A stretch of DNA of 36,185 nt from a virus, in IMG/VR virus record IMGVR_UViG_3300032117_000086, positions 1-36,185 of that record; one strand, given 5' to 3'. How positions within the stretch are numbered: the first letter of the stretch is position 1; the number at the start of each line of letters is the position of its first letter. A model generated the notes under the pieces. The model worked only from the letters and a program-made list of their open reading frames with translations. It ran no database searches and was not told where the DNA came from. A program made the translations under genes and the position numbers. Of the stretch, positions 10,167 to 31,411 are shown piece by piece.

Positions 10167-10745
10167 CTAAAAAACAGAAGCAAATCCACCTTCAAAACCG
10201 TGAGAATGTTGTTGCGCTCCAAACTTTCTAATATAACGTAAACCAAATTCAGCTTTTTCTGTTAACTCATATGCAAATCCAACTTTACCAGTATTAGATT
10301 CAAAATAGTATTTGTTGTTATAAGCATTACGATAACGATAACTACTAGTAAGTGTTAGTTTTTTGGTAATCTTAACATCTTCTTCTACTGTAAACTGATA
10401 ATGACTATAATCACTGCCTTTTTCATTAATAATACGACCGGTACCTACTTGAAGGTTAGTTGTAAAGCGATCAATAGTAAACAAATCTCTACTTAACTGT
10501 AACTCAAGCATACTCTGTAAAGGAGCATTCTTTGTAGTGTCACGATTAATTTCATAATCTATACCTAACTGATAATCCAATATATGTGTAGAAGGGGTAA
10601 TAGCGAGGTGTTCATTAGTAGCTTTAGGTCCTTTTATGTAAGGGGCTTGAGTATACACCTCTGAACCATATTCAAATTCGACGCCAGATTCCGCAAGAAC
10701 TGATGTAGCTGTTAATAATAGAAATACAACTAATAAGTTTTTCAT
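10167..10745 (-). CDS. Small outer-membrane beta-barrel candidate with signal peptide
   Basis: 192 residues. A clear signal peptide opens the protein (MKNLLVVFLLLTATSVLA, likely cut after Ala18). The mature part shows alternating polar/hydrophobic strands typical of a small barrel (HILDYQLGIDYEIN, SMLELQLSRDLF, TTNLQVGTGRII, LTLTSSYRYRN, KVGFAYELTEK, EFGLRYIRKF) and ends in Phe, as barrel-assembly signals in outer-membrane proteins usually do. Its length would suit about eight strands. The ATG overlaps the TGA of the transporter gene by four bases (ATGA), so the two are translationally coupled. A secreted protein of this kind is not a virion part; it more likely changes the envelope of the infected cell. 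Its exact role (pore, exclusion factor or adhesin) is unknown. Confidence 0.7.
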   Translation of the reverse strand: MKNLLVVFLLLTATSVLAESGVEFEYGSEVYTQAPYIKGPKATNEHLAITPSTHILDYQLGIDYEINRDTTKNAPLQSMLELQLSRDLFTIDRFTTNLQVGTGRIINEKGSDYSHYQFTVEEDVKITKKLTLTSSYRYRNAYNNKYYFESNTGKVGFAYELTEKAEFGLRYIRKFGAQQHSHGFEGGFASVF

Positions 10746-11809
10746 TTAATAAAAGTAAAAATAGCTGCAGTTAATAAAAGTAAAAATGCCCAGGTACCTA
10801 ATGCTTTGTAGTATGTAGATAGAGGGGTACCGAAATAACGTTTACCGATCATAACACATTCGTGCATTGGAGTTAAAAGATAACCACAATAATCTAATGC
10901 AAAAAACCATAGTAGATACTGTCTACCAAACACTGTTGTAGCTAATACAGTTAAAGCTGCAAATTTACCATCACTACCCATACTAAAGCTAGCCGCAAAT
11001 AATAGCATACTAATAATATACATACCACTAAATGTATGCGGATCTAAGCCCCAGTTTCTTACTGCGTGTTCAATCCAGGCTCTATGTTCTTGCATATAAC
11101 CAGAAGTAAAAAAGATAACACCGATTAATGCAATAGTAGTCCAGTTAACATAACTACTAATTTTTTTCCAGCTATAGGTCTTAGTAATATACAGATAATA
11201 AGCTAATAGAGCACCGAAGATAGGAAACACTAGCTCTGGACCTTCTCCACCAAGTAGCATATACGTAAGAACTGCAGTAATAAACGGTATTACATTTTTA
11301 ATAAAGTTACCAGCACCAAGATTTTCTTGAGGTGTAATCTCTATCTCGTCTTCTTTAATAACAAAGAATAGATAGTAAAAAATAAATGCAGCACTAACAG
11401 CTATCAACGGCCATAACATTTTTAACCATACTGCATATGTAATACCAAACGCTGCCATTGGTAGTATTACTGGTTTCTCAATAGGAGACCACATATAATA
11501 GTGATGGGTAGTAAGGAAGTCAATAGGTCCAAGCTTTTGACGTGCTTTTACATCTTTTTCTTTTGAAGCTGTTGCTGTATCTAATATGCCTGCACTAACT
11601 GTACTTCTACCTTCTAGAGGCAATATACCACTAATAAGACTAATAACAGCAATAACTAACTTGTTACTTTTAATTTTAAATTTTAACCACCCATATGTAC
11701 ATCCAAATAGGTTATGCTCTTTAGCAATACCCGCTACTACCATAATAGTAAAGAGTACAAAGAGATAGATTTCGTCTCCGAGATAAAAACGGTCTAAAAA
11801 GTCACTCAT
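10742..11809 (-). CDS. DUF401-like inner-membrane transporter
   Basis: 355 residues with about nine or ten hydrophobic segments, beginning near residue 14 and ending at the C-terminus (AFLLLLTAAIFTFI). Three stretches fit the DUF401 family of predicted multi-span transporters, related to the ion-transporter superfamily: SGILPLEGRSTVSAG (60-74) against the family LLPMPGGxxxSAP loop, FLTTHHYYMWSPIEKPVILP (98-117) against the FINYWFRHxWEYxxPLYP segment, and GYLLTPMHECVMIGKRYF (309-326) against GxxxSPxHLCxxLTxEYF. The protein is somewhat shorter than usual for the family. It is coupled by a four-base overlap to the outer-membrane barrel candidate. The substrate cannot be told from sequence. A TATAAAATA stretch just upstream of the ATG is a broken late-promoter match at best. 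Confidence 0.7.
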   Translation of the reverse strand: MSDFLDRFYLGDEIYLFVLFTIMVVAGIAKEHNLFGCTYGWLKFKIKSNKLVIAVISLISGILPLEGRSTVSAGILDTATASKEKDVKARQKLGPIDFLTTHHYYMWSPIEKPVILPMAAFGITYAVWLKMLWPLIAVSAAFIFYYLFFVIKEDEIEITPQENLGAGNFIKNVIPFITAVLTYMLLGGEGPELVFPIFGALLAYYLYITKTYSWKKISSYVNWTTIALIGVIFFTSGYMQEHRAWIEHAVRNWGLDPHTFSGMYIISMLLFAASFSMGSDGKFAALTVLATTVFGRQYLLWFFALDYCGYLLTPMHECVMIGKRYFGTPLSTYYKALGTWAFLLLLTAAIFTFIK

Positions 11810-11823
11810 AGCTATATTTTATA

Positions 11824-13458
11824 TTATTTCTTTACAATAGCCAGGTAAAAACCGTTCCACCACATATCAGGATCTTCTAAATCGTTTAATAATATTTTTT
11901 CGTATATTATTTCCAAACCAGCGTCTAAGATGCCTTTCTTGGCTCCATCTACTACACCATCAAAATTAGCATCATCAAATATGACAACTGCTTCATCCTT
12001 AAGTTTATCTGCAAAGTATCTTATTGCGTGGTAATTAGCTTCAGCACTATGATCTGCATCATAAAAGAAAAGATCTATATCATCTATACTAGCTTTATTT
12101 ACTTTTAAAAAATGACTATCAAATATCTTAACTTTATTATCTCCTTTATACTTCTTTACATTTTCAATAAACTTTTCTTTAGATGATTTAAAAGCTACTT
12201 TACCATTAGCAGATTTGGTTTGTTCTAACCAATGATCTACTGCATAAGCTTTGAGGTTGTTGTCTTTAATGGTTGCGCAAAAAGTGGCACCATTTAACAC
12301 GCCGACTTCAAGATAACTAGTCGATATCTTACCTAACCCGTTTAACAGTTGTTTCATTTTCTCTGATGTAATGCCTTCTACTTTTACATCTATAGGTCGG
12401 TTTACAGTTTCTATTAATAAACGAGTTACCTGCTCAGCTTTTTTATTAGCTTTATTACCTTTAGCTTTCCATACCTTTTCACAGTAGTTACAATCCCAGC
12501 AATTAAACTTACAGGTCTTTATCTTTTGACGCCAAACATTAATCGGTTTATCTATTAAGTTTGTATCTTCTATATATGTATTAAAGTCATCGAATAGTAT
12601 TTCTTCTTTATTAGCAAATCGCTTAATAATATTCATCGTTTCTTGCATACGGAAACTATTCTCTCTTCCGTGCATTTTAATTACATCAATACCTAGATCT
12701 AAAAACTCTAACCAATCTTGTCTCCAAGGTGGAAAATTAGCATTTTTAAGTTGTACAGCTATATCTTGATTCTGCCATCTTGGACAACTTACCCTACTAA
12801 TAGGGTCTGTAAAGTATTGATTACCGGTGGTTCTCGTATTGTTGAAATGGTAATGTTCATCCATTACCGGACAACCACCGACACAACCTTCATTAGCTAA
12901 TAAAGATAGCTTTATACCATATTTGTCTTTAACACGTTTAATCTCTCTAAGTCTATCGTGGTCTCTCATAAGAACACGATCAAGGTTAACATAGTTAAAA
13001 CCAGCTTGAGCTAAAGCAGCTACTTCTCTTGGTTCTTTTACTGCTCTTAATATAGTATTTTTAACGAACAGTTCAGGAAAGTTGCGTTTAATCTGGCCTG
13101 TTAGCAACCAATGAGTATGAGGTAAAGTACACGATCTTACACCTACATCATACAACGGTTTAAAGTTCTTTATCCAGGTTTCTAAGTTTTGTTGACTAGC
13201 TCTTATAGCTGTGTTGTTAAAAGTAGCTGATATAGGTATACCAGTTTCTTTTTGTACGTGTAAAGCCGTTTCAATAGCAAACTTATAGTCTTCTTGCTGT
13301 AAGAAAACATCGCCCATTGCATCTTGTACAAAGGGAGCTATACGACAAGTAAAATAAATGTCGTAAATGTAATCCTTATACTTTTTACAAAACTCTAAAA
13401 AACTATAAAACTGCGGTTCTGTAAGTTTAGGATTTAGCGGTATACTAAATATCTTCAC
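11824..13458 (-). CDS. U32-family (COG0826-like) domain fused to a class I SAM methyltransferase
   Basis: 544 residues. The N-terminal part (about 1-345) looks like a U32-family barrel: FNYVNLDRVLMRDHDRLREI (154-173) fits the family beta-strand/helix, NEGCVGGCPVMDEHYHF (189-205) its Cys motif, and LGIDVIKMHGRENSF (255-269) its GIxxxKIxGR motif. Cys192, Cys196, Cys225 and a cluster at Cys316, Cys320, Cys323 and Cys326 could hold an iron-sulfur centre. Known members (UbiU/UbiV, RlhA, TrhP) hydroxylate ubiquinone precursors or RNA. The C-terminal part (about 375-544) is a methyltransferase: motif I EVGVLNGATF (384-393), AYAVDHW (404-410), DLFFYDADHS (462-471), VIFDDANFDGV (492-502). The start is GTG at 13458, inside the end of the previous gene (14-base overlap). 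The substrate is unknown. Confidence 0.72.
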   Translation of the reverse strand: MKIFSIPLNPKLTEPQFYSFLEFCKKYKDYIYDIYFTCRIAPFVQDAMGDVFLQQEDYKFAIETALHVQKETGIPISATFNNTAIRASQQNLETWIKNFKPLYDVGVRSCTLPHTHWLLTGQIKRNFPELFVKNTILRAVKEPREVAALAQAGFNYVNLDRVLMRDHDRLREIKRVKDKYGIKLSLLANEGCVGGCPVMDEHYHFNNTRTTGNQYFTDPISRVSCPRWQNQDIAVQLKNANFPPWRQDWLEFLDLGIDVIKMHGRENSFRMQETMNIIKRFANKEEILFDDFNTYIEDTNLIDKPINVWRQKIKTCKFNCWDCNYCEKVWKAKGNKANKKAEQVTRLLIETVNRPIDVKVEGITSEKMKQLLNGLGKISTSYLEVGVLNGATFCATIKDNNLKAYAVDHWLEQTKSANGKVAFKSSKEKFIENVKKYKGDNKVKIFDSHFLKVNKASIDDIDLFFYDADHSAEANYHAIRYFADKLKDEAVVIFDDANFDGVVDGAKKGILDAGLEIIYEKILLNDLEDPDMWWNGFYLAIVKK

Positions 13459-18096: not shown

Positions 18097-18102
18097 TATT
18101 TA
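18097..18102 (-). promoter_or_regulatory. Late promoter motif TAAATA overlapping a stop codon
   Basis: The minus strand reads GTTAAATATAGAATATG. The TAA is the stop codon of the 841-residue fibre and six bases separate the motif from the ATG at 18090. Confidence 0.45.
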
Positions 18103-20625
18103 ACTCAATCTTGCACTTAACTGTGTTACTAAATTACTTAGGTTATTTATTTGTATTTGCTGTGCTTTAACTGCTTCAGTAAGAAGAGCTGTTATACGGC
18201 TATAATCAATACCAACAACTACATCTCCTTCTGTGGAAACTACAGCTGGTAGTACTGGTAATACATCTTCTGCAATAAAACCAATTTCGTTAGTAGCGGA
18301 TACATCAATTAAACTATCATACACGACTGCATTTAATAATTGAGTAGTTGCTAATGGATCTACAATAAAAGATGATAATGGTCTAATATTTGTCTTACCG
18401 ACTTTAGAAGATGTAGAAGTAAATGATACTGCAGTAGCGTTACCGTTAACATCCACTGTAAAGTTTTGAGCTATACTTGCTGTTTTAGCTGATAAAGAAC
18501 CAGCAACTGTAAGAGTACCACTAGGTGCAGTCGTACCTATACCAACGTTACCTGTAGAGGTAATGCGCATATACTCTGTACCAGGAGAAACGATATTTCT
18601 GCCTTGATTAAAAACAAGCGCGTTAACGCCAGGTGGTTGACCTATATCCCAATCAGCAAGCCCTGATTGTGTGAACTGTAAATAGCAGCCGCTTTGAGAG
18701 GTAGTTGCGGTGTTAAACAGTTGCATCATTATACCTTCAGTCGGGTTATTAGCGTATTGCTGAAACGGTACGTTAGGTGTTGGTTGGTTTACACCAATAA
18801 AACTGTTATAAAAATAAAGATTGCCCGCGCTTAATGAATTTGTACCGTTAAATAAAGCTGCAGCACCTGACACACCAGTACCAGCAAATGCACCAGAGAA
18901 ACCAGAAGTACCAGTAGCTCCTTGAGCGCCTGTAGCTCCTTGAGCGCCTGTAACACCTTGCGCGCCTGTAACACCTTGCGCGCCATTTGTTCCAGCAGCA
19001 CCTTGTGCACCGTTAGTACCGTTAGTACCTGCAGCTCCTTGAGCTCCTGGAGCACCTGTACTACCTTTTAATCCTTGTGCGCCTTGCGCCCCTGTAGCAC
19101 CGGCCGCACCTTGCGCGCCTGTAGTACCTTGTGCACCGACAGCTCCTTGTGCACCATTCGTACCGTTAGTACCGCTAAAGCCTGAGTAACCGGAATTTGA
19201 TCCTGCAGCTTGAATTTGAGAACCGGGATACTCAACTATTAAGCCTGCTGTAGTACCGATACCAATCATTACTGGTTTAATAATTGAACCAACAGCTGAA
19301 GGAGGTGTTGTGGTCATTAGACCTGCTGTTGTATCTGAAAGATAGTACTGGGCAGCATCTACTATACCTGTAAAACCTGAAGTGTAACCGTTTGCTACGT
19401 ACTGGAATGTTGTGCCTGTAGCGCTAACTACAACACCAATAATATCTGATGTACTCGGGCTATTAGCTTGTGCTAATGCATAACCACCTGAAGTCTTATA
19501 TATAACTTGACCAGGACTAAATGAATTACTATAAGTTACTGATACATTAGTAGCATTTAAACCACTTGAACCAGACGCACCAGATATACCGCTAAAGCCT
19601 GATATACCACTAAAACCGCTAAAGCCGGAATAGCCTGATATACCTGAAAAACCAGATGAACCTTGACCAGAGTAACCAGATGCACCAGATACACCTTGAC
19701 CAATTGGAGTTCTAATTACAGAATAATTAGTTGCACCATTATATATAAATGTAGCCGATACTGTTTGTGTATTCGGTGAATACATTCCTACATTAACAAG
19801 TATTCTATCTGTAGCTGAAAGTAAAGTAATATTACTTGTTACATAACTAAACTTAGTATATGTTGGTGTTGCAGCTGTTGTAAATACTGCTCCTGTATCT
19901 GCACTTAAAATAAATGCACTAGTTGAGCTTGTAGCCATTGAATAGCTATACAAACTAAATACAAAGCCTGCAGAAGGGTTTGGTGTTGTTGCACCCGCGC
20001 CTACTTGATAAAACCATTCAATGTCCCAAATACCAGCTGGTATTTCTGCAATACCTGGCTCTCCAATAGGAGTTAAATAACCACCTATTGATTGTGCACT
20101 ATAAGCATTACTATTAGTACTGTTTACATAAGCAACATCATCATATTGAGTAACCCCACCACCACCCGGTGTCAATGCAATTACTTCATATAATGGTTGA
20201 TCACTGTTAACTTCTTGAAAGAAATAGGTTCTACCATATACAGACGCGCCTGTAGGTCCAGACCAACCTGATATACCACTAAAGCCAGATATACCTGTAA
20301 AACCGGATATACCACTGAAGCCACTAAAGCCTGAGTAACCACTGATACCAGTAAAACCAGACCAGCCGGAAATACCTGAAAAGCCGCTTATACCACTAAA
20401 GCCGGAAAAGCTCGAGTAGCCACTATAACCAGATATACCTGTAAAACCGCTATAACCACTTATACCGGTAAACCCGGAAAAGCCGCTAATACCAGTAAAT
20501 CCAGAATAACCGGAAGCACCCTGTGCACCAGTAGAGCCTGTTGCTCCTTGTGCGCCAGTCAGACCGGTAGTACCTGAATAACCGGATTGTCCCTTAATCG
20601 CTGTGTATACAAATGTATTGCTCAT
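18100..20625 (-). CDS. Modular collagen-like tail fibre with S74 chaperone domain
   Basis: 841 residues. Parts in order: tag [27 protein letters not shown] array (about 14-125); beta domain (about 130-310, GRTYFFQEV ... SYSMATSSTSAFILSAD ... RTPIGQG) closely matched in the 1038-residue fibre; short aromatic array (315-355); a beta module SPGQVIYKTSGGYALAQA (about 365-475) of a type widespread in phage fibres; GAQ-type array (about 480-580); beta linker with GNVGIGTTAPSGTLTVAGS; S74 domain (about 735-841) with Ser739/Lys744 and GFIAEDV. The S74 part nearly matches that of the 302-residue fibre. A TATAAATA late promoter lies 18 bases before the ATG. The chaperone would be removed after trimer folding. 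Confidence 0.88.
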   Translation of the reverse strand: MSNTFVYTAIKGQSGYSGTTGLTGAQGATGSTGAQGASGYSGFTGISGFSGFTGISGYSGFTGISGYSGYSSFSGFSGISGFSGISGWSGFTGISGYSGFSGFSGISGFTGISGFSGISGWSGPTGASVYGRTYFFQEVNSDQPLYEVIALTPGGGGVTQYDDVAYVNSTNSNAYSAQSIGGYLTPIGEPGIAEIPAGIWDIEWFYQVGAGATTPNPSAGFVFSLYSYSMATSSTSAFILSADTGAVFTTAATPTYTKFSYVTSNITLLSATDRILVNVGMYSPNTQTVSATFIYNGATNYSVIRTPIGQGVSGASGYSGQGSSGFSGISGYSGFSGFSGISGFSGISGASGSSGLNATNVSVTYSNSFSPGQVIYKTSGGYALAQANSPSTSDIIGVVVSATGTTFQYVANGYTSGFTGIVDAAQYYLSDTTAGLMTTTPPSAVGSIIKPVMIGIGTTAGLIVEYPGSQIQAAGSNSGYSGFSGTNGTNGAQGAVGAQGTTGAQGAAGATGAQGAQGLKGSTGAPGAQGAAGTNGTNGAQGAAGTNGAQGVTGAQGVTGAQGATGAQGATGTSGFSGAFAGTGVSGAAALFNGTNSLSAGNLYFYNSFIGVNQPTPNVPFQQYANNPTEGIMMQLFNTATTSQSGCYLQFTQSGLADWDIGQPPGVNALVFNQGRNIVSPGTEYMRITSTGNVGIGTTAPSGTLTVAGSLSAKTASIAQNFTVDVNGNATAVSFTSTSSKVGKTNIRPLSSFIVDPLATTQLLNAVVYDSLIDVSATNEIGFIAEDVLPVLPAVVSTEGDVVVGIDYSRITALLTEAVKAQQIQINNLSNLVTQLSARLS
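20255..20580 (-). repeat. Aromatic Gly-X-Ser array of the 841-residue fibre
   Basis: Nine-base units encode [12 protein letters not shown] and GWS triplets. Two further arrays lie in the same gene: a short aromatic one at about 19560-19700 and a GAQ-type one at about 18880-19195. Confidence 0.8.
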
Positions 20626-20656: not shown

Positions 20657-23600
20657 TTAGACTATAAACCAGCTGGTACCGTTGTATACAATAGTAGCTG
20701 CTTCGTAGTTATAATTTAATAGGTAAGTGTTTTGACCGTCAATCGTTACACCTGCGCCAGATAACGTAATGTTATTTGTACGAGCTGCACCAGATTCGTC
20801 TTTAATTGTTATAAACGTACCTTGACTTAATGGTAGAGCTGGCAAGTACAATGTAGCAGGTCCTGCAACATTAACACCAATGTATTCATCGGTTGATTGT
20901 AGAGCGTTTGGTGAAGTAGTTACTAATCTTACACCTTGAACGTTTGGATATATAATCTGTGAGTTGTCAAGGTTTAAGTAGCCGCGTTCATTTACTACTA
21001 CAGCTGTTGTAGATGTAATAGCTCTCATGATCGGTTTTGATACCGTACCGAAAGCACTTGGTGAAACTGTTGTAACACTACCTGCAATAGTTGGTGATAG
21101 GTAATAACATTCACCTGGTGTTAAGCTTGCTAGACCGTTAATTAAACCGTTATATACGATTGTAAATGTTGTACCTGTTGAAGATTGAACAACACCAGTT
21201 GCTTCAGCATCAGCTGCATTGTCTGCAATTGCTAAGAACCAACCGCTTGAACCGTTGTCAAGACGTACTACGTTACCAGCACTGAATGTATTGGTATATG
21301 TAATGACTTGGCTTGAAATGTTTACTGTAGTACCAGAAATACCTGAGAAACCAGATATACCGCTAAAGCCGCTGTAACCGCTAATACCAGAGAAGCCTGA
21401 TATACCGGAAGCACCGGACCAGCCTGAAATACCACTAAAGCCTGATATACCGCTAAAGCCACTAATACCAGAGAAACCTGAAATACCAGTGAAGCCGGAG
21501 TAGCCAGATATACCACTAAAACCAGATATACCTGTAAAGCCGCTAAAGCCCGAAATACCGCTAAAGCCGCTGTAGCCACTAATACCACTGAAACCGCTTA
21601 TACCGGTAAAGCCTGACCAACCAGAGATACCTGAGAAACCAGATATGCCTGTAAAGCCACTATAGCCGCTTATACCGCTAAAGCCAGACCAGCCTGAAAT
21701 ACCGGTGTAACCGCTATAGCCACTAATACCGCTAAAGCCGGACCAGCCACTGATACCGCTAAAACCTGATATACCGGTAAAGCCTGAGAAGCCAGAGTAG
21801 CCTGATATACCACTAAAGCCAGACCAACCGCTAATACCTGAGAAACCAGATATGCCGCTGAAGCCTGAAATACCAGAGAAGCCAGAATAACCTGACCAAC
21901 CACTGATACCACTAAAGCCTGATATACCACTGAAACCAGACCAGCCGCTAATACCGCTGAAGCCGGAGTAGCCTGAAATACCACTAAAGCCTGATATACC
22001 AGAAAAGCCACTATAGCCACTAATACCGGAGAAGCCCGAGATACCGCTAAAGCCGCTTATGCCGCTAAAGCCTGAGTAACCGCTAATACCAGTAAAGCCG
22101 GACCAACCAGAAATACCTGAGAAACCAGATATACCACTGAAGCCACTATAGCCTGAAATACCACTAAAACCCGAGGTACCAATACCGCTAAAGCCGGAGT
22201 AACCTGAACTACCACTAACACCTTGACCGATTGGAGTACGTAAAGCGGAATATATTGAACTACCATTGTAATGGTAAGTAGCAGTAATTGTTGATGTGCT
22301 TGTTGTATAAGCAGCGATCTGTAATAAAATACGATCTGTTGCAGAAAGCTTTGTAATCGTGCTTGTAACGTAACCTAATTTTTGGAAAGTTAAAGATGTA
22401 TCTGTAACAGGGCCTGAATCAGCACTTAAGATAAATGCGCTAGTAGCGCTTGTAGCCATTGAGTAGCTATATACGCTAATAACAAAGTTTGCTGCGCTAG
22501 CAGAAACGTTACGATAGAAATCGAATTCCCACAAACCAGCTGGAATTTCAACTAAGCCTGGTTCCCCAATTGGTGTTAAGTACCAACCGTAAGCGCTTGG
22601 GCTACCTGGACCTGCTGTGGTAGAGTTAAGAGCTAATGCGTCATCGTTTACGTCTGTACCACCACCGCCTGGCACTAACGACATTACTTCAAATACTGTT
22701 GGGTTTTGATCGCTTGTTACTTCTTGTAGGTAGTATGTTCTACCGTAAATGGATGCACCAGTACCACCAGAGATACCAGACCAACCACTAATACCACTGA
22801 AACCGCTTATACCGGTAAAGCCAGACCAACCGCTAATACCTGAGAAACCAGATATACCTGTAAAGCCAGAGTAACCAGAAATACCACTGAAACCACTGAT
22901 ACCGCTAAAGCCTGAGATACCAGAGAAGCCAGAGTAACCGGAAATACCAGTAAAGCCTGACCAACCCGAGATACCACTAAAGCCGCTAATACCACTGAAA
23001 CCAGATATACCGGTAAAGCCTGAATAACCAGACCAGCCACTAATACCGCTGAAACCAGAAATACCTGTAAAGCCTGACCAACCTGAGATACCAGAAAAGC
23101 CTGAAATACCTGAAAAGCCAGAATAGCCGGACCAGCCACTAATACCGCTGAAACCGCTAATACCTGTAAAACCGCTAATACCGCTGAAGCCCGAATAACC
23201 GGACCAGCCAGAAATACCACTAAAACCACTTATACCGGTAAAGCCGGAGTAACCGCTAATACCTGTAAAGCCAGAGTAACCAGAAATACCAGTAAAGCCG
23301 GACCAACCAGAAATACCGCTGAAACCGCTAATACCTGTAAAGCCTGAAAAACCGGTATAACCAGAATAACCTGTAAAGCCTGAATAACCAGACCAACCAC
23401 TGATACCTGAGAAACCGGAGTAACCAGAAATACCTGTAAAGCCAGACCAACCACTGATACCTGAGAAACCGCTAATACCTGTAAAGCCAGAGTAACCAGA
23501 AATACCTGTGAAACCGCTTATACCGCTAAAGCCGGACCAGCCTGAGATACCACTAAAGCCTGAAATGCCAGAAAAACCACTGTAACCGCTAATACCACTA

Positions 23601-23773
23601 AAACCGCTTATACCAGTAAAACCTGATATACCAGTATAGCCGGAATAACCGCTAATACCAGAGGCTCCGGAATAACCGCTTGTGCCTGTAGCACCTTGTG
23701 CACCTTGTGCACCGTTTTGACCGGAGAAACCTGATTGACCTCTAATTGCTGTGTATACGAAGGAATTTGCCAT
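20657..23773 (-). CDS. Giant aromatic Gly-X-Ser repeat tail fibre
   Basis: 1038 residues. Tag MANSFVYTAIRGQSGFSG is nearly the same as in the 841-residue fibre. A very long array of Gly-(F/Y/I/W)-(S/T) triplets fills about residues 30-340; a beta domain follows (about 343-510, GRTYYLQEV ... SYSMATSATSAFILSAD ... RTPIGQG), then a second array (about 515-810). The C-terminal 220 residues hold two modules shared with the 625-residue fibre: AGNVVRLDNGSSGWFLAIAD ... VNERG and the terminal EYIGV ... LPALPL ... IKDESG ... YNGTSWFIV. There is no S74 domain. It lies 56 bases after the 625-residue gene with no clear TAAATA motif, so it is probably read from upstream. A fibre role is inferred from modules and neighbours. 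Confidence 0.85.
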   Translation of the reverse strand: MANSFVYTAIRGQSGFSGQNGAQGAQGATGTSGYSGASGISGYSGYTGISGFTGISGFSGISGYSGFSGISGFSGISGWSGFSGISGFTGISGYSGFTGISGFSGISGWSGFTGISGYSGFSGISGWSGYSGFTGYSGYTGFSGFTGISGFSGISGWSGFTGISGYSGFTGISGYSGFTGISGFSGISGWSGYSGFSGISGFTGISGFSGISGWSGYSGFSGISGFSGISGWSGFTGISGFSGISGWSGYSGFTGISGFSGISGFSGISGWSGFTGISGYSGFSGISGFSGISGFSGISGYSGFTGISGFSGISGWSGFTGISGFSGISGWSGISGGTGASIYGRTYYLQEVTSDQNPTVFEVMSLVPGGGGTDVNDDALALNSTTAGPGSPSAYGWYLTPIGEPGLVEIPAGLWEFDFYRNVSASAANFVISVYSYSMATSATSAFILSADSGPVTDTSLTFQKLGYVTSTITKLSATDRILLQIAAYTTSTSTITATYHYNGSSIYSALRTPIGQGVSGSSGYSGFSGIGTSGFSGISGYSGFSGISGFSGISGWSGFTGISGYSGFSGISGFSGISGFSGISGYSGFSGISGFSGISGYSGFSGISGWSGFSGISGFSGISGWSGYSGFSGISGFSGISGFSGISGWSGFSGISGYSGFSGFTGISGFSGISGWSGFSGISGYSGYTGISGWSGFSGISGYSGFTGISGFSGISGWSGFTGISGFSGISGYSGFSGISGFSGFTGISGFSGISGYSGFTGISGFSGISGFSGISGFSGISGWSGASGISGFSGISGYSGFSGISGFSGISGTTVNISSQVITYTNTFSAGNVVRLDNGSSGWFLAIADNAADAEATGVVQSSTGTTFTIVYNGLINGLASLTPGECYYLSPTIAGSVTTVSPSAFGTVSKPIMRAITSTTAVVVNERGYLNLDNSQIIYPNVQGVRLVTTSPNALQSTDEYIGVNVAGPATLYLPALPLSQGTFITIKDESGAARTNNITLSGAGVTIDGQNTYLLNYNYEAATIVYNGTSWFIV
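21330..22225 (-). repeat. Aromatic Gly-X-Ser/Thr array, second block of the 1038-residue fibre
   Basis: About 100 nine-base units. The triplet GIS closes most units, which are six residues (GFS-GIS) or nine ([18 protein letters not shown]). Glycine and serine codons vary freely between copies. Confidence 0.85.
22765..23735 (-). repeat. Aromatic Gly-X-Ser/Thr array, first block of the 1038-residue fibre
   Basis: About 105 uninterrupted triplets of [12 protein letters not shown] and GFT. Trp nearly always follows a GIS triplet. A few GAQ triplets sit at the promoter-proximal end. Confidence 0.85.
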
Positions 23774-23829: not shown

Positions 23830-25707
23830 TTAAACTAAATTCCATCTATTACCATAATATACTACTTCCACCGTTTCGTAAGGAGAAGTAATTTCATCGT
23901 ATGCATATCCATCAATTGTATCCGGATATGTAGCAGAAATTATAACATAATTGGTAGTACTATTAGCTAATCCTGTCATATCTTTAATAGAATATGCTTT
24001 ACCGTTAAAGCCTCTTGGTAATGTAATAGTAGATATACCATTATATTCTACACCAATATAATAATCCGTGGAAGCTGGTGTATAATATTGATTAGTAACG
24101 CCTATTACGTTTACAGAACCACCTAATGCTGAATCGTTTGTATTTAATATACCACGTTCATTAACAACAACACCAACATTAGTACTTACCGCTCTTAATA
24201 TTGGTTTGGAAACTGTACCTACTGCGCTCGGGGAATATGTTGCAAGTGCGCCCGCAACTGTATCAGACAAGAAATAACATTCTCCCGGATTAAGTGTAAC
24301 AGTATTGTCAAAAGTAATTAAACCGTTATATACTATATAGAAGTTGTAACCAGTTGAATATTGTATAACGCCTGTTGCTTCAGCATCTTTAGCGTTGTCT
24401 GCTTGAGCTAGTACCCAACCACCACCTGCGTTATCAAGTCTTACAACTTGACCAGCACTAAACATATTACTATATGTTATTAATTGGCTAGAAATATTAA
24501 CAGGTGAACCGCTATAACCACTATAACCTGAAAAACCGCTTGTACCGGAATAACCTTGAATACCTGAAAAACCGCTATAACCAGACCAACCTGAGATACC
24601 TGAGTAACCGTCTATACCACTATAACCGGAAAAACCAGATATACCGCTAAAACCAGTATCACCTTGCGCACCTTGAAAGCCTGTATCGCCTTGTGCGCCT
24701 TGTGCGCCTTGCGGACCGAAATCACCTTGAGAACCTTGCGGGCCAAAGTCGCCTTGTGCACCTTGTGGTCCTATATTACCTTGTGCACCCTGGGGACCGA
24801 AGTCACCTTGGGCACCCTGTGGACCAAAGTCGCCTTGAGCGCCTTGCAGACCTATACTACCCTGAGGGCCTTGCGGACCGAAGTCACCTTGAGCGCCTTG
24901 TGAACCAAAACTACCTTGCGCACCTTGTGCACCATCTTGACCTGAAAAACCTGAAGTACCGGAATCGCCTTTAACTTGACCTACATTAGCCCAAGTGCCA
25001 TTACCTAGTACCCATAAATCACCAGTAGTTTCATCAATTACACCGTTACCGTTTACTGCACTAGGAAACGCCGTGTTTAAAGTTGTTTGAGGATTACCAC
25101 CTACAGTAGGTACAGTACCAATAATAGTAACTGATGTACCATTTTGTCCGGAATAACCTGAAGCACCATCTTGTCCAATAGTACCGTTTTGTCCGCTATA
25201 ACCAGAAATGCCTGAAAAACCACTAATACCACTAAAACCAGATATACCGCTAAAGCCGGAAATGCCGGAGTAACCTGAAATACCGCTAAAGCCAGAGTAA
25301 CCAGATATACCACTAAAACCGGAGTAACCAGAAGCACCAGATATACCAGTTGAAGCTGTAAACTGTACTGTACCGTCTGGGAATATTACACCACCGTTAC
25401 TACTTAATTGAAAACTATACGAACTATTTGTTAAAGCAGATAGTGAACCAGTGCTATTACCACTTGAAAATAAAACTAAGTTTCCGTCGGCCGTACCGTT
25501 TTGATACCAGTATATATAAGGTACGCCACTAATAATAAGACGTACTTGCATTGACTGGAACCTGACTGCTGATGGTATAGAAGCATTAGCTGCTGAAAGA
25601 GCACCTGCTATAGTAGCACCTGCATAAGGACCAGACCATGAGTCTACCGGTAGTGGGTTTACCGGTTGAATACCATATACGAGTTGTAAGCCTGGAGTTA
25701 AAGACAT
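23830..25707 (-). CDS. Modular collagen-like tail fibre without S74 domain
   Basis: 625 residues. The N-terminal 120 residues hold a docking-type domain with [20 protein letters not shown] and [11 protein letters not shown], a pattern frequent at the base of phage fibres. Then come an aromatic array (about 122-190), a small module [20 protein letters not shown] ... [19 protein letters not shown] (about 190-248) also present in the 1210-residue fibre, and a mixed array (about 248-400) with a striking GDFGPQGAQ periodicity. The C-terminal 225 residues carry the [20 protein letters not shown] ... VNERG module and the terminal [18 protein letters not shown] ... YYGNRWNLV module, both shared with the 1038-residue fibre. 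AATAAATA lies six bases before the ATG. No self-cleaving chaperone is present. Confidence 0.83.
24505..24950 (-). repeat. Mixed Gly-X-Y array with GDFGPQGAQ period
   Basis: The central part (about 24700-24920) repeats GDF-GPQ-GAQ and close variants (GNI, GSI, GSF; GLQ) in 27- to 36-base units. GYS/GFS/GIS triplets follow it at 24505-24660. Confidence 0.8.
25137..25345 (-). repeat. N-terminal aromatic Gly-X-Ser array of the 625-residue fibre
   Basis: Nine-base units encode GYS, GFS and GIS triplets, ending in [19 protein letters not shown]. Confidence 0.75.
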
Positions 25708-25713
25708 TTTAAA

Positions 25714-25721
25714 TATTTATT
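25714..25721 (-). promoter_or_regulatory. T4-type late promoter motif AATAAATA
   Basis: The minus strand reads AATAAATATTTAAAATG. The ATG at 25707 starts six bases after the motif. The motif overlaps the stop codon of the 1210-residue fibre. Confidence 0.5.
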
Positions 25722-28700
25722 ACGACCATGTTACCTGGTGCCTGTGGTTGGATGAATAAGGTGTAGCATTAGATAACGTGTAAATGTTGTATGATGTTGG
25801 TGTACCAGCATAATTATAAACATTACCTGCACTTAACACGTAACTTGCAGTAATATTTGCGTTTAATGCATCTAGATCAAGTACTTGAGATATCGTATGA
25901 CCTGTTGGCATTGCTATTGTGAATGTATCATATACATTACCTGTGCTTAATAAGAATGGATTACCTAATGTAGTTACGAACGCATCATAAGGTAAAGCTC
26001 TAATACTACTTGAGCCTGTTGGTGCAGAAGCTTCAGGTCCATACCATATTAAATTGTAGAAGTTTATCGTGGTACTGGTTGATGTACCTGTGTTATAACT
26101 GTCTGTAGCGACTACTTGATATACTATATTAGAAGCAGCACTTACTGTAGGTACAGCAAATACTATATTAGAAGATGACAAGCTACTTGTACCAGGGCCA
26201 ACATTAGCAGAAGCTAAGAATACGTATGTACCACCGTTTACTGAGTAATTTAACTTATACGAACTTAATGGTACGTAATTGCTGTTGTTGTGGTTTGTTA
26301 TAGTACCACTAATATAGCTACTTGTGTTACCTATTTCTCTTGTATATGTAGATTCTGGAGCTGTTGTGCTAGAAGCTGTAATTACAAACGTTGTTGTTGG
26401 TGCTACATAAGCTGCAGGTGTAACTGTTGTAATAGCTCCTGCAGACAATAAATTCGAGTCAGTAAAGATATACTGATACTGGAAGTTCTGAGTATTGTAG
26501 TTCGTATCTGTCATCGTATGTGTATACGTGCCAGATGTAGCTGATAGCGCTTGATAACCGCTTAATAAAGGTGTCCAAGAACCAGAACTGTTTCTTCTCC
26601 ATTGCAGTAATGCTGATAGTGCCGTAGCACCAACAGTATTAATTGTATAACCGTAATTTAATACGTTTGCAATTGCTGTTTGATTAAATTGTACAGTGCT
26701 TGAAGTTGTTAATGTAGCATTTGGAGCAATGTCTTGAGATACTGCTAATTGTATGACTTGAGCTGGTGTTAAACCTATTGCAGGTATTATGTCACCGTTT
26801 TTGTATTGACCGAAAGTATAACCGCTTGCTAAATTAACAGATAAGTTTTCAGTATAGGTATATTCAATACCACTATAACCAGATATACCACTAAAACCAG
26901 AACCACCGCTGTAACCGCTATAACCAGAACCACCGCTATAACCACTATAACCAGATATACCAGTAAAGCCTGAGATACCACTAAAGCCTGAGTAACCAGA
27001 TAGACCTAAACCGCTAAAGCCAGAATAACCAGATACCCCAGAACCACTGAAACCACTATAACCGCTTATACCGGTAAAACCACTATAACCACTGATACCG
27101 CTAAAGCCAGAATAGCCAGACCAGCCCGATATACCGGAGAAGCCTGAGAAACCAGATGTACCTGTAAAGCCTGATATACCACTAAAGCCACTAAAGCCGC
27201 TATAACCGCTTATACCAGTAAAACCTGACCAACCTGAAATACCAGTATAACCACTAAAGCCTGAGTAACCAGATATACCACTAAAACCGCTTATACCTGT
27301 AAAGCCTGAGTAACCACTTATACCGCTTGCTCCACTAAAGCCTGAGTAACCTGATATACCGCTAAAACCTGATACACCACTAAAGCCACTAAAGCCTGAG
27401 TAGCCTGAAATACCACTAAAGCCTGAGATACCTGAAAAGCCGCTTATACCAGTGAAGCCGGAATAACCTGACGTACCCACACCACTAAAACCACTATAAC
27501 CTGAAGTACCGCTATCGCCTTTAATTTGACCAACATTAGTCCAAGTTGTACCACTATATACCCATAAGTCGCCAGTATTTTCATCTATTACACCATTACC
27601 AGCTACTGCTCCAGGGAATGCTGCATTTAAAGTAGCCTGTGGGTTACCGCCGACTGTTGGTACTGTACCTATAATAGTAACTGAGGTACCATTTTTACCA
27701 GAATAACCAGATAAACCAGAAATACCAGAGAAGCCAGATATACCACTAAAACCAGATATACCTGTAAAGCCTGAATAACCGCTTATACCGGTAAAGCCGC
27801 TGAAACCAGACACACCACTAAAGCCTGAGAAGCCGGAGTAGCCTGAGATACCGCTGAAACCAGATGTACCTGAAAACCCAGAATAGCCGCTAATACCAGA
27901 GAAGCCTGAAGTACCGCTATAACCACTATAACCAGATATACCTGAAAAACCGCTTATACCACTGAAGCCGCTAATGCCGCTAAAGCCTGATAAACCGCTG
28001 TAACCGGAATAACCAGATATACCGCTAAAACCTACGTAGCCGCTGTAACCACTAAAGCCTGAAAAACCGCTATAGCCTACAGCGCCAGACCAACCAGAGA
28101 TACCCGAGAAACCAGATATACCACTGAAACCACTATAACCTGATATACCACTAAAGCCGACAGGACCGCTATAACCAGATATACCACTAAAGCCTGATGT
28201 ACTGTCTCCACTAAACCCGGAATAACCAGATAAACCTAAACCACTAAAGCCAGAGAAACCTGATTGTCCTTGAGAACCAAAACTAATGTTAGTTATAATT
28301 CTACTATAATGCGTAGTACCTAAGAAATAGTAAGCAATATTAACACCACCTGTACCATCACCACCATTAAGATCAGAAGTATCGTTTGTTTGGCCGTATA
28401 TATCAATTCTAATACGATCTGAAGGTTGTAATAAAATAGCTTCAGTAATATAATACTGAGTTCTAATAAAGTTAGTATTACCGTACGTATGTACTAACGG
28501 ATCGCTGGTAACAGAGAAGAGTTGTGTTGTAGTACTGTCTGTAGCGACTTTGCTTACAACATATGTAATATGAGACTGTATACCAGGATCACTAGCATGT
28601 ACTCCGTAGTATTGATAATAAGAATCAAAGTACCAACTACCAATATCAATTAATGTTTTACCAGGATCTCCAGAAAGTGTAGCTGTACTGAATATTCTTA

Positions 28701-29352
28701 CAGGGTTTAAAGGCTGATTAAAGAACCCAGTATCGAATTCAACTTCAGCACCTACTTCGGGAAATTCTTGGGCAGCATCTGTAACACCAGGTATGTCTGA
28801 AGGTACATCAGATGGATAATAAACTACGCCTATAGGAGAAGAACCTGAGTAACCAGATTCACCAGAAGCACCCGAGGTACCGCTAGCACCACTTGCACCT
28901 GATATACCACTAAAACCAGAAACACCAGAACCACTAAAACCAGATATACCACTAAAGCCTGATTGACCATTTAAACCACTAAAGCCTGATTGACCATTTA
29001 AACCGGAGTAACCAGAAGTACTATTACCAGAAAAACCAGATATACCTTGACCTCCTTGTGCACCTTGAGCGCCTTGTGGTCCAGTATCGCCTTGCGCGCC
29101 TTGTTGTCCCTGCATTAACGAGGATATCGCTACTGCATAGGTTGAGTACGAACCATCTGAATTTGGTTGATCTAAAAATGTTAAATCATTATTCTGTAAA
29201 TTTGGTACTATCGGTAGTTCGTGTGGGAACACAATTGATGGCGTACCATTTGTAGTATTTGAATATGCAGAAGATGCGCCGGAAACTCCTTCATTAGGGA
29301 GTGCAGAAAGCTCATTAACATATACAATTGTTGGGTATTGCGGGACCGGCAT
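25720..29352 (-). CDS. Largest collagen-like tail fibre, 1210 residues
   Basis: The N-terminal 78 residues look like a docking domain (YPTIVYVNELSALPNEGVSG ... YSTYAVAISSLMQGQ). Next: a short array (about 79-165), a beta domain (about 170-358, VVYYPSDVPSDI ... YYFLGTTHYSRI) related to that of the 950-residue fibre, an aromatic array (about 360-552), the [20 protein letters not shown] ... GDLWVYSGTTWTNVGQIKG module (about 555-620), a third array (about 620-825) and a 380-residue C-terminal beta region. The latter begins SGYTFGQYKNGDIIPAIGLT and then shows Ig-like strands (YTHTMTDTNYNTQNFQYQYI). There is no S74 domain. It is the first fibre in transcription order after the neck-like gene. A TAAATA motif six bases before the ATG overlaps that gene's stop codon. 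Confidence 0.83.
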   Translation of the reverse strand: MPVPQYPTIVYVNELSALPNEGVSGASSAYSNTTNGTPSIVFPHELPIVPNLQNNDLTFLDQPNSDGSYSTYAVAISSLMQGQQGAQGDTGPQGAQGAQGGQGISGFSGNSTSGYSGLNGQSGFSGLNGQSGFSGISGFSGSGVSGFSGISGASGASGTSGASGESGYSGSSPIGVVYYPSDVPSDIPGVTDAAQEFPEVGAEVEFDTGFFNQPLNPVRIFSTATLSGDPGKTLIDIGSWYFDSYYQYYGVHASDPGIQSHITYVVSKVATDSTTTQLFSVTSDPLVHTYGNTNFIRTQYYITEAILLQPSDRIRIDIYGQTNDTSDLNGGDGTGGVNIAYYFLGTTHYSRIITNISFGSQGQSGFSGFSGLGLSGYSGFSGDSTSGFSGISGYSGPVGFSGISGYSGFSGISGFSGISGWSGAVGYSGFSGFSGYSGYVGFSGISGYSGYSGLSGFSGISGFSGISGFSGISGYSGYSGTSGFSGISGYSGFSGTSGFSGISGYSGFSGFSGVSGFSGFTGISGYSGFTGISGFSGISGFSGISGLSGYSGKNGTSVTIIGTVPTVGGNPQATLNAAFPGAVAGNGVIDENTGDLWVYSGTTWTNVGQIKGDSGTSGYSGFSGVGTSGYSGFTGISGFSGISGFSGISGYSGFSGFSGVSGFSGISGYSGFSGASGISGYSGFTGISGFSGISGYSGFSGYTGISGWSGFTGISGYSGFSGFSGISGFTGTSGFSGFSGISGWSGYSGFSGISGYSGFTGISGYSGFSGSGVSGYSGFSGLGLSGYSGFSGISGFTGISGYSGYSGGSGYSGYSGGSGFSGISGYSGIEYTYTENLSVNLASGYTFGQYKNGDIIPAIGLTPAQVIQLAVSQDIAPNATLTTSSTVQFNQTAIANVLNYGYTINTVGATALSALLQWRRNSSGSWTPLLSGYQALSATSGTYTHTMTDTNYNTQNFQYQYIFTDSNLLSAGAITTVTPAAYVAPTTTFVITASSTTAPESTYTREIGNTSSYISGTITNHNNSNYVPLSSYKLNYSVNGGTYVFLASANVGPGTSSLSSSNIVFAVPTVSAASNIVYQVVATDSYNTGTSTSTTINFYNLIWYGPEASAPTGSSSIRALPYDAFVTTLGNPFLLSTGNVYDTFTIAMPTGHTISQVLDLDALNANITASYVLSAGNVYNYAGTPTSYNIYTLSNATPYSSNHRHQVTWS
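26868..27505 (-). repeat. Aromatic Gly-X-Ser array, third block of the 1210-residue fibre
   Basis: About 70 nine-base units of [12 protein letters not shown] and GFT triplets with occasional breaks such as SGSGVSG, SGLGLSG and SGGSG. Confidence 0.8.
27690..28270 (-). repeat. Aromatic Gly-X-Ser array, second block of the 1210-residue fibre
   Basis: About 63 nine-base units of GFS, GIS and GYS triplets, with rarer GTS, GVG and GLS variants. Confidence 0.8.
28840..29115 (-). repeat. First Gly-X-Y array of the 1210-residue fibre
   Basis: A GAQ-type start ([15 protein letters not shown]) passes into GFS/GIS triplets and GASGASGTSGASG. The unit GLNGQSGFS occurs twice in tandem near 28965-29010. 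Confidence 0.7.
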
Positions 29353-29358
29353 ATATTA

Positions 29359-29364
29359 TATTTA
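29359..29364 (-). promoter_or_regulatory. Late promoter motif TAAATA overlapping a stop codon
   Basis: The minus strand reads AATTAAATATAATATATG. The TAA is the stop codon of the neck-like gene, and six bases separate the motif from the ATG at 29352. Confidence 0.45.
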
Positions 29365-30372
29365 ATTGTTCAGGCCTGGATAACCGATATAAGTGTTAGG
29401 TCTTCCTTCAACACCAGCAGCACTAGCAGCAGGAGCAGATAAGTTACCACCTAACAAGTCTACTAGTGTTACATTACTATCATAAGATCCATATACACCA
29501 GTATCTGGTTTACCGACTGTTGGGTTAACACCACTATAGCTAGCATATCCAGATAGCGGTGCATTTGTATTTGTTTGATAGTTATATACGTTATTTCTAG
29601 TAAAGTTATCGACGTTTTGAGAGTAAGCTTTAATATCGATAACACGAGCAAACTCTGTTTGACCGGGTTCCCCTGTATTGAGAGGTACTAAACCATCAGC
29701 TTTATTGTCATATACTTGATCACTATAGTTTTCTCTAGGTGCATTAGGTTCAAATGTATAGTCGTAACGCTTACCCTTGATCGTCCATATATAATGACCC
29801 ATCAATTGATTCTTATCGCCACCCTTTTGATCAACACGCTCAGTTATTTCATATATCTGACCAGATCTACCACTTGGTCGAGTTGCACCATATTCAACAA
29901 GTTCTATAACGTCACCTGCTTTAGGTTCCCATGTATATTGACTTGTTACAGCACTTAATGATGAAGTAGATAAAGATTTTGTAAACGTCTGTATAGATAT
30001 AACAGCTGTAATGTCAGCTTCACCCTGTATACCAAACTTACTCAATATAATACTATCATTATTAAGAGTCAAACATATTACCATTGGTATAGGTGGTAAG
30101 AATCCGGCTAATGGTTGTTCACCATAGAAGAAGTCATGTCCAGATAGTGTATATGCATTAACATAATAATATACAAGCATTCCGTACTGGCTAATCTGTT
30201 CATTCCACCAATTATCAAATAATTGGATTTCGTACGCATTTTGTGTTATATCTAAATAGCGCAAGTTTCCTATAGCACATTCCGCTGCTCCGGGTATATT
30301 TGTACCTATCGGATTATAAACACCGGGTGGTACGTAAGGACCGGTATCAACACAATATTGCGCAATTGACAT
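29362..30372 (-). CDS. Neck protein, T4 gp14-like
   Basis: 336 residues from the ATG at 30372 (MSIAQYCVDTGPYVPPGVYN). The open frame runs further upstream to 30903, but that part only mirrors the scaffold-like gene on the other strand. Residues about 100-210 resemble the core of T4-type gp14 neck proteins: SKFGIQGEADITAVISIQTF, then WEPKAGDVIELVEYG, GQIYEITERV, and an HYIWTIKGKRYDYTFEPN stretch. The C-terminal 100 residues are Asn/Ser/Gly-rich and probably flexible. In T4, gp14 helps close the head and joins it to the tail. GTAAATA sits five bases before the ATG, and the scaffold-like gene diverges from the same 55-base gap. The family call rests on motif pattern only. Confidence 0.55.
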   Translation of the reverse strand: MSIAQYCVDTGPYVPPGVYNPIGTNIPGAAECAIGNLRYLDITQNAYEIQLFDNWWNEQISQYGMLVYYYVNAYTLSGHDFFYGEQPLAGFLPPIPMVICLTLNNDSIILSKFGIQGEADITAVISIQTFTKSLSTSSLSAVTSQYTWEPKAGDVIELVEYGATRPSGRSGQIYEITERVDQKGGDKNQLMGHYIWTIKGKRYDYTFEPNAPRENYSDQVYDNKADGLVPLNTGEPGQTEFARVIDIKAYSQNVDNFTRNNVYNYQTNTNAPLSGYASYSGVNPTVGKPDTGVYGSYDSNVTLVDLLGGNLSAPAASAAGVEGRPNTYIGYPGLNN

Positions 30373-30377
30373 AAAAA

Positions 30378-30384
30378 TATTTAC
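30378..30384 (-). promoter_or_regulatory. T4-type late promoter motif GTAAATA
   Basis: The minus strand reads TGTAAATATTTTTATG, five bases between motif and the ATG at 30372. It forms the leftward half of a divergent promoter pair. Confidence 0.5.
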
Positions 30385-30412
30385 AAAAGTTATAGAATTA
30401 ATCAGTAATATA

Positions 30413-30419
30413 CTAAATA
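30413..30419 (+). promoter_or_regulatory. T4-type late promoter motif CTAAATA
   Basis: The plus strand reads ACTAAATAATATTATAATG, eight bases between motif and the ATG at 30428. It forms the rightward half of the divergent pair and serves a single gene that ends in a terminator. Confidence 0.55.
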
Positions 30420-30427
30420 ATATTATA

Positions 30428-31411
30428 ATGAGCAAAATAAAGAACTTATCCGACCTAGACTCTCTATATAGTATGGTCCAAGAAAATGCTGCTAAAATGC
30501 CAGCAATTGTAAATGGTAACAAGCAGCCTGATATTCTTTTAACAGATGCGACACAATATGTCCCAGCTGGTAAAGCTCCTAAGGTAGGCCAAGGCTTCGG
30601 CAAAGATAAAGAAGAATTAGCAAAAGACACTGGCCCTGAAGCTGCTGGTAACTTCAAGAAAGGTGAAGCTAAAGAAAAACAACATGCTGCTAAAGAAACA
30701 AAGCAAGAAGAAAGCGATGCAAAAGCAGCTAAGAAAAATGAAGAAGCTCCAGAAAAAATGGAAGAGAATGTAGATTCTGCTTCGAGAACTCCTAAATATA
30801 AGAAACAACAATTTACTATGCCTAAATCAAAATTCCAAAAATTATACGAAGACGCTATTAACAGCGGTGCATTCCAAAACGTTAGCGAAGAAGAAGCTAT
30901 CACTCCAGTAGAGCCAGCAGCAGATGCTCCTGAAATGGGCGGCGATGAAGCAGGTCATGAAGAAGAAGCTTGCTGCACTCATGAAGAAGCAATCGAGATG
31001 GTAGAAAAGCTTCTAAAGTTCCTTAAGAAGGATACAGAATTTGACAAAGCTCACGGCGATTTAGGTGATGAAGATAAATTCATTACTGGCGGTGAAGAAG
31101 AAACAGCAATGGAAGACTCTTCCGAAGAGGAAGAAGAATCAATGGATGAAGCTGTTGAAGCTGAAGATCTTGGTCACCCACTCGAAGGTGCTAAGTCCGA
31201 AGAGCTAAAAGATGGTCACAAGATTCATAAAGTTGGTGGTTCAGGCGTAACCAAAGTTAAAGGTGCTGCAACTGAACAAGGTGCAAGCTTTAAGAATGAG
31301 CCAGCTCCTAAGAAAGAAAAAGAATCAGCACATCTTAAAGACGGTCACAAACTTCATACAGTAGGTAATCTTACACCTGATAAAGGTGAAGCTAACGCCT
31401 TTACTAAATAA
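30428..31411 (+). CDS. Acidic, highly charged scaffold/prohead-core-like protein
   Basis: 327 residues, rich in Glu, Lys, Asp and Ala and poor in aromatics. After a helical N-terminus (SKIKNLSDLDSLYSMVQEN), residues about 60-125 are a mixed-charge stretch (KEKQHAAKETKQEESDAKAA). A helix with PKSKFQKLYEDAINSG follows, then an acidic region with a Cys pair (EEACCTHEEAIEMVEKLLKF) and runs of Glu (SSEEEEESMDEAVEAED). The unit LKDGHKIHKVGG recurs as LKDGHKLHTVGN near the C-terminus. Composition and place beside neck and terminase genes suit an internal scaffold or prohead-core protein like T4 gp67/gp68/gp22, but no family motif was recognised. It has its own late-type promoter and a strong terminator. 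Confidence 0.55.
   Translation: MSKIKNLSDLDSLYSMVQENAAKMPAIVNGNKQPDILLTDATQYVPAGKAPKVGQGFGKDKEELAKDTGPEAAGNFKKGEAKEKQHAAKETKQEESDAKAAKKNEEAPEKMEENVDSASRTPKYKKQQFTMPKSKFQKLYEDAINSGAFQNVSEEEAITPVEPAADAPEMGGDEAGHEEEACCTHEEAIEMVEKLLKFLKKDTEFDKAHGDLGDEDKFITGGEEETAMEDSSEEEEESMDEAVEAEDLGHPLEGAKSEELKDGHKIHKVGGSGVTKVKGAATEQGASFKNEPAPKKEKESAHLKDGHKLHTVGNLTPDKGEANAFTK

Follow-up and report, generated by a model that had tools for sequence, protein, structure and literature searches.

The open reading frame at 20657..23773 (minus strand) of the window, an uncultured virus record of 36,185 bases, was found to encode a variant of the phage collagen-like fibre proteins, with long Gly-X-Y arrays that are free of proline and filled with aromatic residues and Ile at X. 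Whereas shafts of Gly-X-Y type are known from phages, this composition appears to be new, as does the nearest-neighbour law by which Ile-type X residues avoid each other. We found no published description of either the aromatic repeat or the law in the open-access literature. The order of the triplets is far from random, and the protein, judging from its predicted domains and gene neighbourhood, most likely forms a trimeric stalk in the tail fibre of a phage with a contractile tail.

The gene starts with ATG and encodes 1038 amino acids. Array 1 (22751..23740, minus; aa 12-341) consists of 110 unbroken Gly-X-Y triplets, the first seven of which are mostly ordinary collagen-like, with F 37, I 37, Y 16 and W 11 at X (101 of 110) and S 88 and T 19 at Y. 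Array 2 (21326..22171, minus; aa 535-816) adds 94 unbroken triplets with F 36, I 36, Y 12 and W 8 at X and S 86 and T 8 at Y, and is preceded by a short GXY stretch (22178..22222, minus). When the arrays were pooled, F, Y, W or I occupied 193 of 204 X positions and S or T 201 of 204 Y positions. No Gly interruption and no Pro was present in these 204 triplets, so the imino-acid richness that is typical, albeit not defining, of collagen-like proteins is missing. A first-pass annotation of the DNA had described two Pro-free arrays of about 100 triplets each, with Gly at every third residue, bulky X and Ser or Thr at Y, and this description was borne out. Inside the span assigned to them, 21330-23735, a globular domain of 176 amino acids (22223..22750, minus; aa 342-517) separates the two arrays. 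This middle domain was predicted with low confidence to be a jelly-roll-like beta sandwich and has a paralogue in the ORF at 18100-20625; a TNF-like or CBM-like name was rejected, given that the model was weak (pLDDT 55-62) and matched many unrelated sandwiches at a Z of ~9. Behind the arrays lies a C-terminal region of 222 amino acids, composed of a weakly modelled first part (20942..21325, minus; aa 817-944) and a C-terminal domain (20660..20941, minus; aa 945-1038).

Gly recurs at every third residue over 204 triplets, and the ORF matched the Pfam Collagen family (PF01391) with 292 bits against a cut-off of 27.2, as well as PHROG tail-fibre families. These scores, like the sequence matches to PDB entries, reflect the Gly spacing; matches to solved collagens, including 8zxl, agreed at Gly only and were set aside. 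The ORF is one of seven collagen-like genes in a block that adjoins genes for terminase, head closure, tail tube and tail sheath, which places it in a tail region. Four of the seven end in the self-cleaving chaperone Peptidase_S74, which is absent from the C-terminus of the ORF at 20657..23773. Among the neighbours, the gene at 18100..20625 (minus) combines shorter aromatic arrays with the same middle domain and a Peptidase_S74 end; that at 23830..25707 (minus) has aromatic triplets together with ordinary collagen triplets (GAQ/GDF), with no break in the register, and ends in the same C-terminal domain family; and that at 25720..29352 (minus) encodes 1210 amino acids with aromatic arrays. The fibre block also holds a DUF401 membrane protein and a phrog_1458/Methyltransf_24 protein at 10742-11809 and 11824-13458. 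At 29362-30903 and 30428-31411, the start (GTG) of a minus-strand ORF lies antisense to a plus-strand ORF, and the true start of the head-closure gene is probably later, near MSIAQYCVDTG.

Structure models were obtained with AlphaFold2 for one chain only. The arrays received no structure in this one-chain run (pLDDT about 23) and no predicted strand, and the last 94 residues were assigned a fold at pLDDT of about 70-83. The best match to this predicted fold was CBA120 TSP4 (Z 12.7, rmsd 1.9, 92 residues), with further matches to the Klebsiella phage KP1 baseplate (Z 11.3), T4 gp10 (10.4) and T4 gp9 (9.8), and the model contained the gp10-type beta domain of tail attachment proteins. The matched proteins are tail attachment proteins and are trimeric. 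T4 gp10 and CBA120 TSP4 have the predicted fold in common with the last 92 residues of the ORF (Z 10.4-12.7); neither is known to carry a collagen-like shaft.

The order of triplets was compared with 2000 shuffles within each array, and no shuffle attained any of the observed values. Ile triplets were never neighbours (0 pairs versus 25.5 expected), Trp followed directly on GIS in 19 of 19 cases (6.7 expected), Thr was never found at Y of an Ile or Trp triplet (0 versus 11.6), and 22 of 24 Thr triplets were followed by an Ile triplet (8.4-8.8 expected). Distances between non-aromatic X positions were mainly 2 triplets (38 of 81) or 3 triplets (30 of 81), and units of 6 and 9 residues closed by GIS were freely mixed. 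Spectra of the Ile/Val positions did not rise clearly above a null that shuffled unit order, and single arrays peaked at differing periods. A register of 7/3 or 2.4-2.5 triplets, for an Ile stripe or a superhelix, was hinted at by autocorrelation and then rejected, since power spectra reached z values of only ~2-4 against the renewal null and their peaks differed between arrays. The neighbour law is local.

Arrays of the same type were found well beyond the window. A search of viral sequence for the GFSGIS grammar, which the first-pass annotation had proposed, gave at least 119 stretches matching GF[ST]GISGF[ST]GIS, and GYSGFSGYS likewise had many matches among the viral contigs listed. The array type thus appears in well over a hundred viral contigs. 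Among 84,980 genomes of bacteria and archaea, 30 stretches matched the pattern, and only two MAG contigs among them had long arrays of such a kind, so aromatic arrays seem in essence a phage feature. The MAG contigs L129 and L141, assigned to Nitrosotalea and Bacteroidetes, carry long aromatic arrays and are probably viral contigs binned with a host. Blastn matches to Staphylococcus phages were discarded; StAP1, the one inspected, contains an unrelated proline repeat (EPEKPI).

After removal of shared DNA, the sample comprised, among the matches listed, 1004 arrays with 24,555 triplets at 193 loci. Set A was picked by GFSGIS, and set B by GYSGFSGYS at loci outside set A. Over these 24,555 viral triplets from the listed matches, X was Y in 31%, I in 21%, F in 19%, T in 7%, A in 5.5% and W in 2%, and the Y position was S in 86% and T in 7%. 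Pro filled 1.5% of X positions and 0.3% of Y positions. The residues FYWILV made up 1.6% at Y, so that bulky hydrophobic residues are confined to X, a feature typical but not defining of collagen. Aromatic and ordinary collagen triplets shared a single register in 84 of the 373 viral runs among the matches listed.

Comparison of the two sets separated a general rule from local habits. Ile-Ile neighbours numbered 29 in set A and 16 in set B, or 0.04 and 0.05 of expectation, and 49 of the 56 set A loci with at least 10 Ile had no such pair. Ile-Val and Val-Ile were low in both sets and Ile-Leu and Leu-Ile in set A, and F-F and Y-Y neighbours were reduced only mildly. In either set, Ile and Trp triplets almost entirely lacked Thr at Y. 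Trp after Ile was a mere tendency across the sets, about twofold, and in set B Thr triplets stood before aromatic triplets and hardly ever before Ile, the opposite of what is seen in the window lineage. A universal contact from Y to the following X, as Thr before Ile might have represented, was therefore rejected. The Trp-after-Ile and Thr-before-Ile rules are lineage dialects, and the general rule is that one Ile triplet hardly ever stands next to another. The first-pass annotation was accordingly right that unit order is not random, and its grammar of GIS, Trp and Thr stands within the window; its placement of Trp after GIS and of Thr in GFTGIS does not extend to arrays in general, and it had caught only part of the Ile rule. 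Asp stood before Ile at 2.3-2.6 times expectation and Ile before Asp at 0.1-0.46 over the 193 viral loci listed, with Ala deviating in the same direction.

The nearest relative, a 140-kb contig (L247), carries the same gene with exactly 1038 amino acids and 0 indels. Between the two orthologues, Gly changed at 0 positions, X at 48 of 204 and Y at 17 of 204. Several of the Ile/Trp differences require three base changes, which suggests copying of segments. The same codon was used for identical residues at a frequency of 0.56 and 0.67 in the two arrays, 0.69 in terminase and 0.97 in the middle domain; the value for array 1 compares with a shuffle level of 0.44. The terminases share 90% amino acid and 85% nucleotide identity, and the middle domain (22223-22750) shares 98% DNA identity with that of L247 and is also very close in a further contig (L254). 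Given that the terminase comparison marks the middle domain as the outlier, this domain is best read as a module recently exchanged between fibre genes, and hypermutation of the arrays, as the scrambled array codons beside a 98% identical domain might have suggested, was rejected. The arrays are old and evolve only somewhat faster than the genome. Within the gene, 41 exact repeats of 30 nt were present versus 0.6 in a synonymous shuffle, and the longest exact repeat measured 40 nt; short segments are therefore copied inside the gene. Array 1 measured 324, 324, 336, 336, 339 and 261 amino acids in six relatives (array start trimmed by the search rule); a strict lock on length holds for the L247 pair, but other pairs gain or lose triplets.

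We propose that the ORF probably encodes the subunit of a homotrimeric tail fibre (or baseplate fibre) whose arrays form collagen-type triple-helix shafts stabilised by packing. Three chains would wind around each other with Gly at the core, the bulky side chains of X lying in the outer grooves and Ser or Thr at Y, giving shafts of about 95 and 81 nm at an assumed 0.86 nm per triplet. The beta sandwich would form a knob joining both shafts, and the end domain of gp10/TSP type would set the trimer and dock or anchor the fibre. We infer trimer, triple helix, packing and shaft role alike from these features. At X, the aromatic residues Phe, Tyr and Trp are among the least favourable for triple-helix stability, as is Ser at Y. 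In host-guest peptides, each replacement of Pro at X costs 2-15 deg C and each replacement of Hyp at Y costs 0-21 deg C, and long recombinant helices show no quantitative agreement with additive stability rules (PMC7824840). Simple additivity of such costs would predict no stable helix from triplets with aromatic X and Ser Y. This puzzle leaves either a large unlisted packing term, or several helices packed as in the C1q stem, or another fold. According to the proposal, aromatic and Ile side chains would substitute for Pro by packing between chains or neighbouring helices, and would tolerate only certain neighbours, of which the order rules would be the record. Axial pairs between neighbouring collagen chains stabilise or destabilise by several degrees, with the stabilising pair running from a Y residue to the following X (PMC12086834). 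Given that axial contacts matter in collagen, neighbour rules are to be expected for a triple helix, and those observed would fit a helix stabilised by axial contacts instead of imino acids, although no modelled contact explains the Ile-Ile exclusion in particular. The best argument from sequence for one kind of helix is that aromatic and ordinary triplets share a register, both in the window genome and in the listed viral runs. A bolder reading, possible rather than probable, is a Pro-free collagen that draws its stability from ordered packing of aromatic and aliphatic residues at X, perhaps in laterally packed or non-supercoiled helices, under a nearest-neighbour code that bars consecutive aliphatic X residues.

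The first-pass annotation had offered an unusual triple helix or a bundle of polyglycine-II helices. The collagen-type triple helix is favoured here, and the strict Gly period, bulk at X only, the register with ordinary collagen and the trimer-type end domain support it best. A polyglycine-II or polyproline-II bundle, of single chains folding back or of parallel chains that lack a supercoil in the manner of S16 gp38, snow flea antifreeze protein or the C1q stem, is a rather unlikely alternative. S16 gp38, a Gly-rich phage tail-fibre part with a PPII backbone like that proposed for the window ORF, reportedly has short polyglycine-II motifs linked by loops at the fibre tip, whereas the window ORF has internal shafts of 110 and 94 consecutive triplets that contain a single Gly each and no turns, and so does not fit the polyglycine-II adhesin kind. 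Ile positions also lack a clear long-range phase beyond the renewal null, and the smooth mixing with ordinary collagen triplets speaks against a bundle as well. A PPII backbone does suit GXX repeats, an aromatic-rich surface would favour lateral packing, and the C1q stem consists of untwisted PPII trimers packed via hydrophobic side chains, but it is an animal protein of heterotrimers that contain Pro and Hyp (PMC11869133). The triple helices themselves are possibly packed in parallel bundles. Beta-solenoids are common among tail spikes. Such a fold, or a triple beta-helix, with turns of 6 and 9 residues that end in GIS is hardly credible here: the two unit lengths mix freely with no coherent period common to the arrays, such folds need no Gly at each third residue, and the array parts lack predicted strands.

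The low pLDDT of the arrays in one chain and their low-complexity composition would also suit a disordered, sticky linker resembling the aromatic spacer repeats of phase-separating proteins. We consider this improbable, given that orthologues never replace Gly and hardly ever swap X and Y classes, that excluded neighbours reach just 4-5% of expectation in unrelated arrays among the matches listed, and that array 1 length stays within about 5% in several relatives, the one with 261 amino acids excepted. The order rules might instead be a by-product of unit duplication, for which the excess of repeated 30-mers speaks, rather than of selection. This is very improbable: the copies are old, codon sharing in array 1 being near the shuffle level, and a single base change (TTY to ATY) beside an Ile codon suffices to make the forbidden pair. 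Phe-Ile neighbours number hundreds to thousands per set over the 193 loci listed, Ile-Ile pairs are all but missing, and F/I exchanges are observed between orthologues, so the deficit would seem to need selection.

Among known proteins, EPclA and EPclB, prophage side-tail proteins of E. coli O157:H7, share with the window ORF a phage Gly-X-Y shaft between globular domains. EPclA has a tail-fibre role, and the two proteins are dumbbell-shaped proven trimers whose triple helix melts at 42 deg C (PMC3368898). Their shaft is ordinary bacterial collagen plus coiled coil, whereas that of the window is Pro-free with aromatic X, a contrast of composition for which the EPclA sequence itself was not compared. 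In a tblastn search against isolate phages, the sole match was Salicola phage SCTP-2, to the C-terminal region. Aromatic arrays are present in a cultured phage, Methylophilaceae phage P19250A (KX815270) from Lake Soyang, in gene 0023, which encodes 1202 amino acids. Its arrays, of 137 and 127 triplets, are of the same type as those of the window ORF, it lies shortly behind the gene for host specificity protein J and is fibre-like, and it has 1 Ile-Ile neighbour versus 6.7 expected, in agreement with the rule. The phage differs in its 38.7-kb genome and in having, in place of a contractile tail, a protein J gene of lambda type, and the gene product in having Glu, Asp and Ala mixed into X; an end domain in common with the window ORF was not detected. 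Gene 0023 (L260:7409-11014) is labelled a tail length tape-measure protein, yet appears to encode an aromatic collagen-like fibre protein.

According to the rules of collagen, the triple helix is held by imino acids at both X and Y and weakened by aromatic residues at X and by Ser at Y. In well over a hundred viral contigs, shafts of up to 100 or more triplets nevertheless appear to be built from these disfavoured residues, in an order kept by selection. If the arrays are triple helices, the stability scales miss a large term, and phages would supply materials work with a collagen that is genetically encoded and free of hydroxylation. Otherwise, a fibre fold common in phages is still unsolved. 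The cultured phage P19250A makes either case testable.
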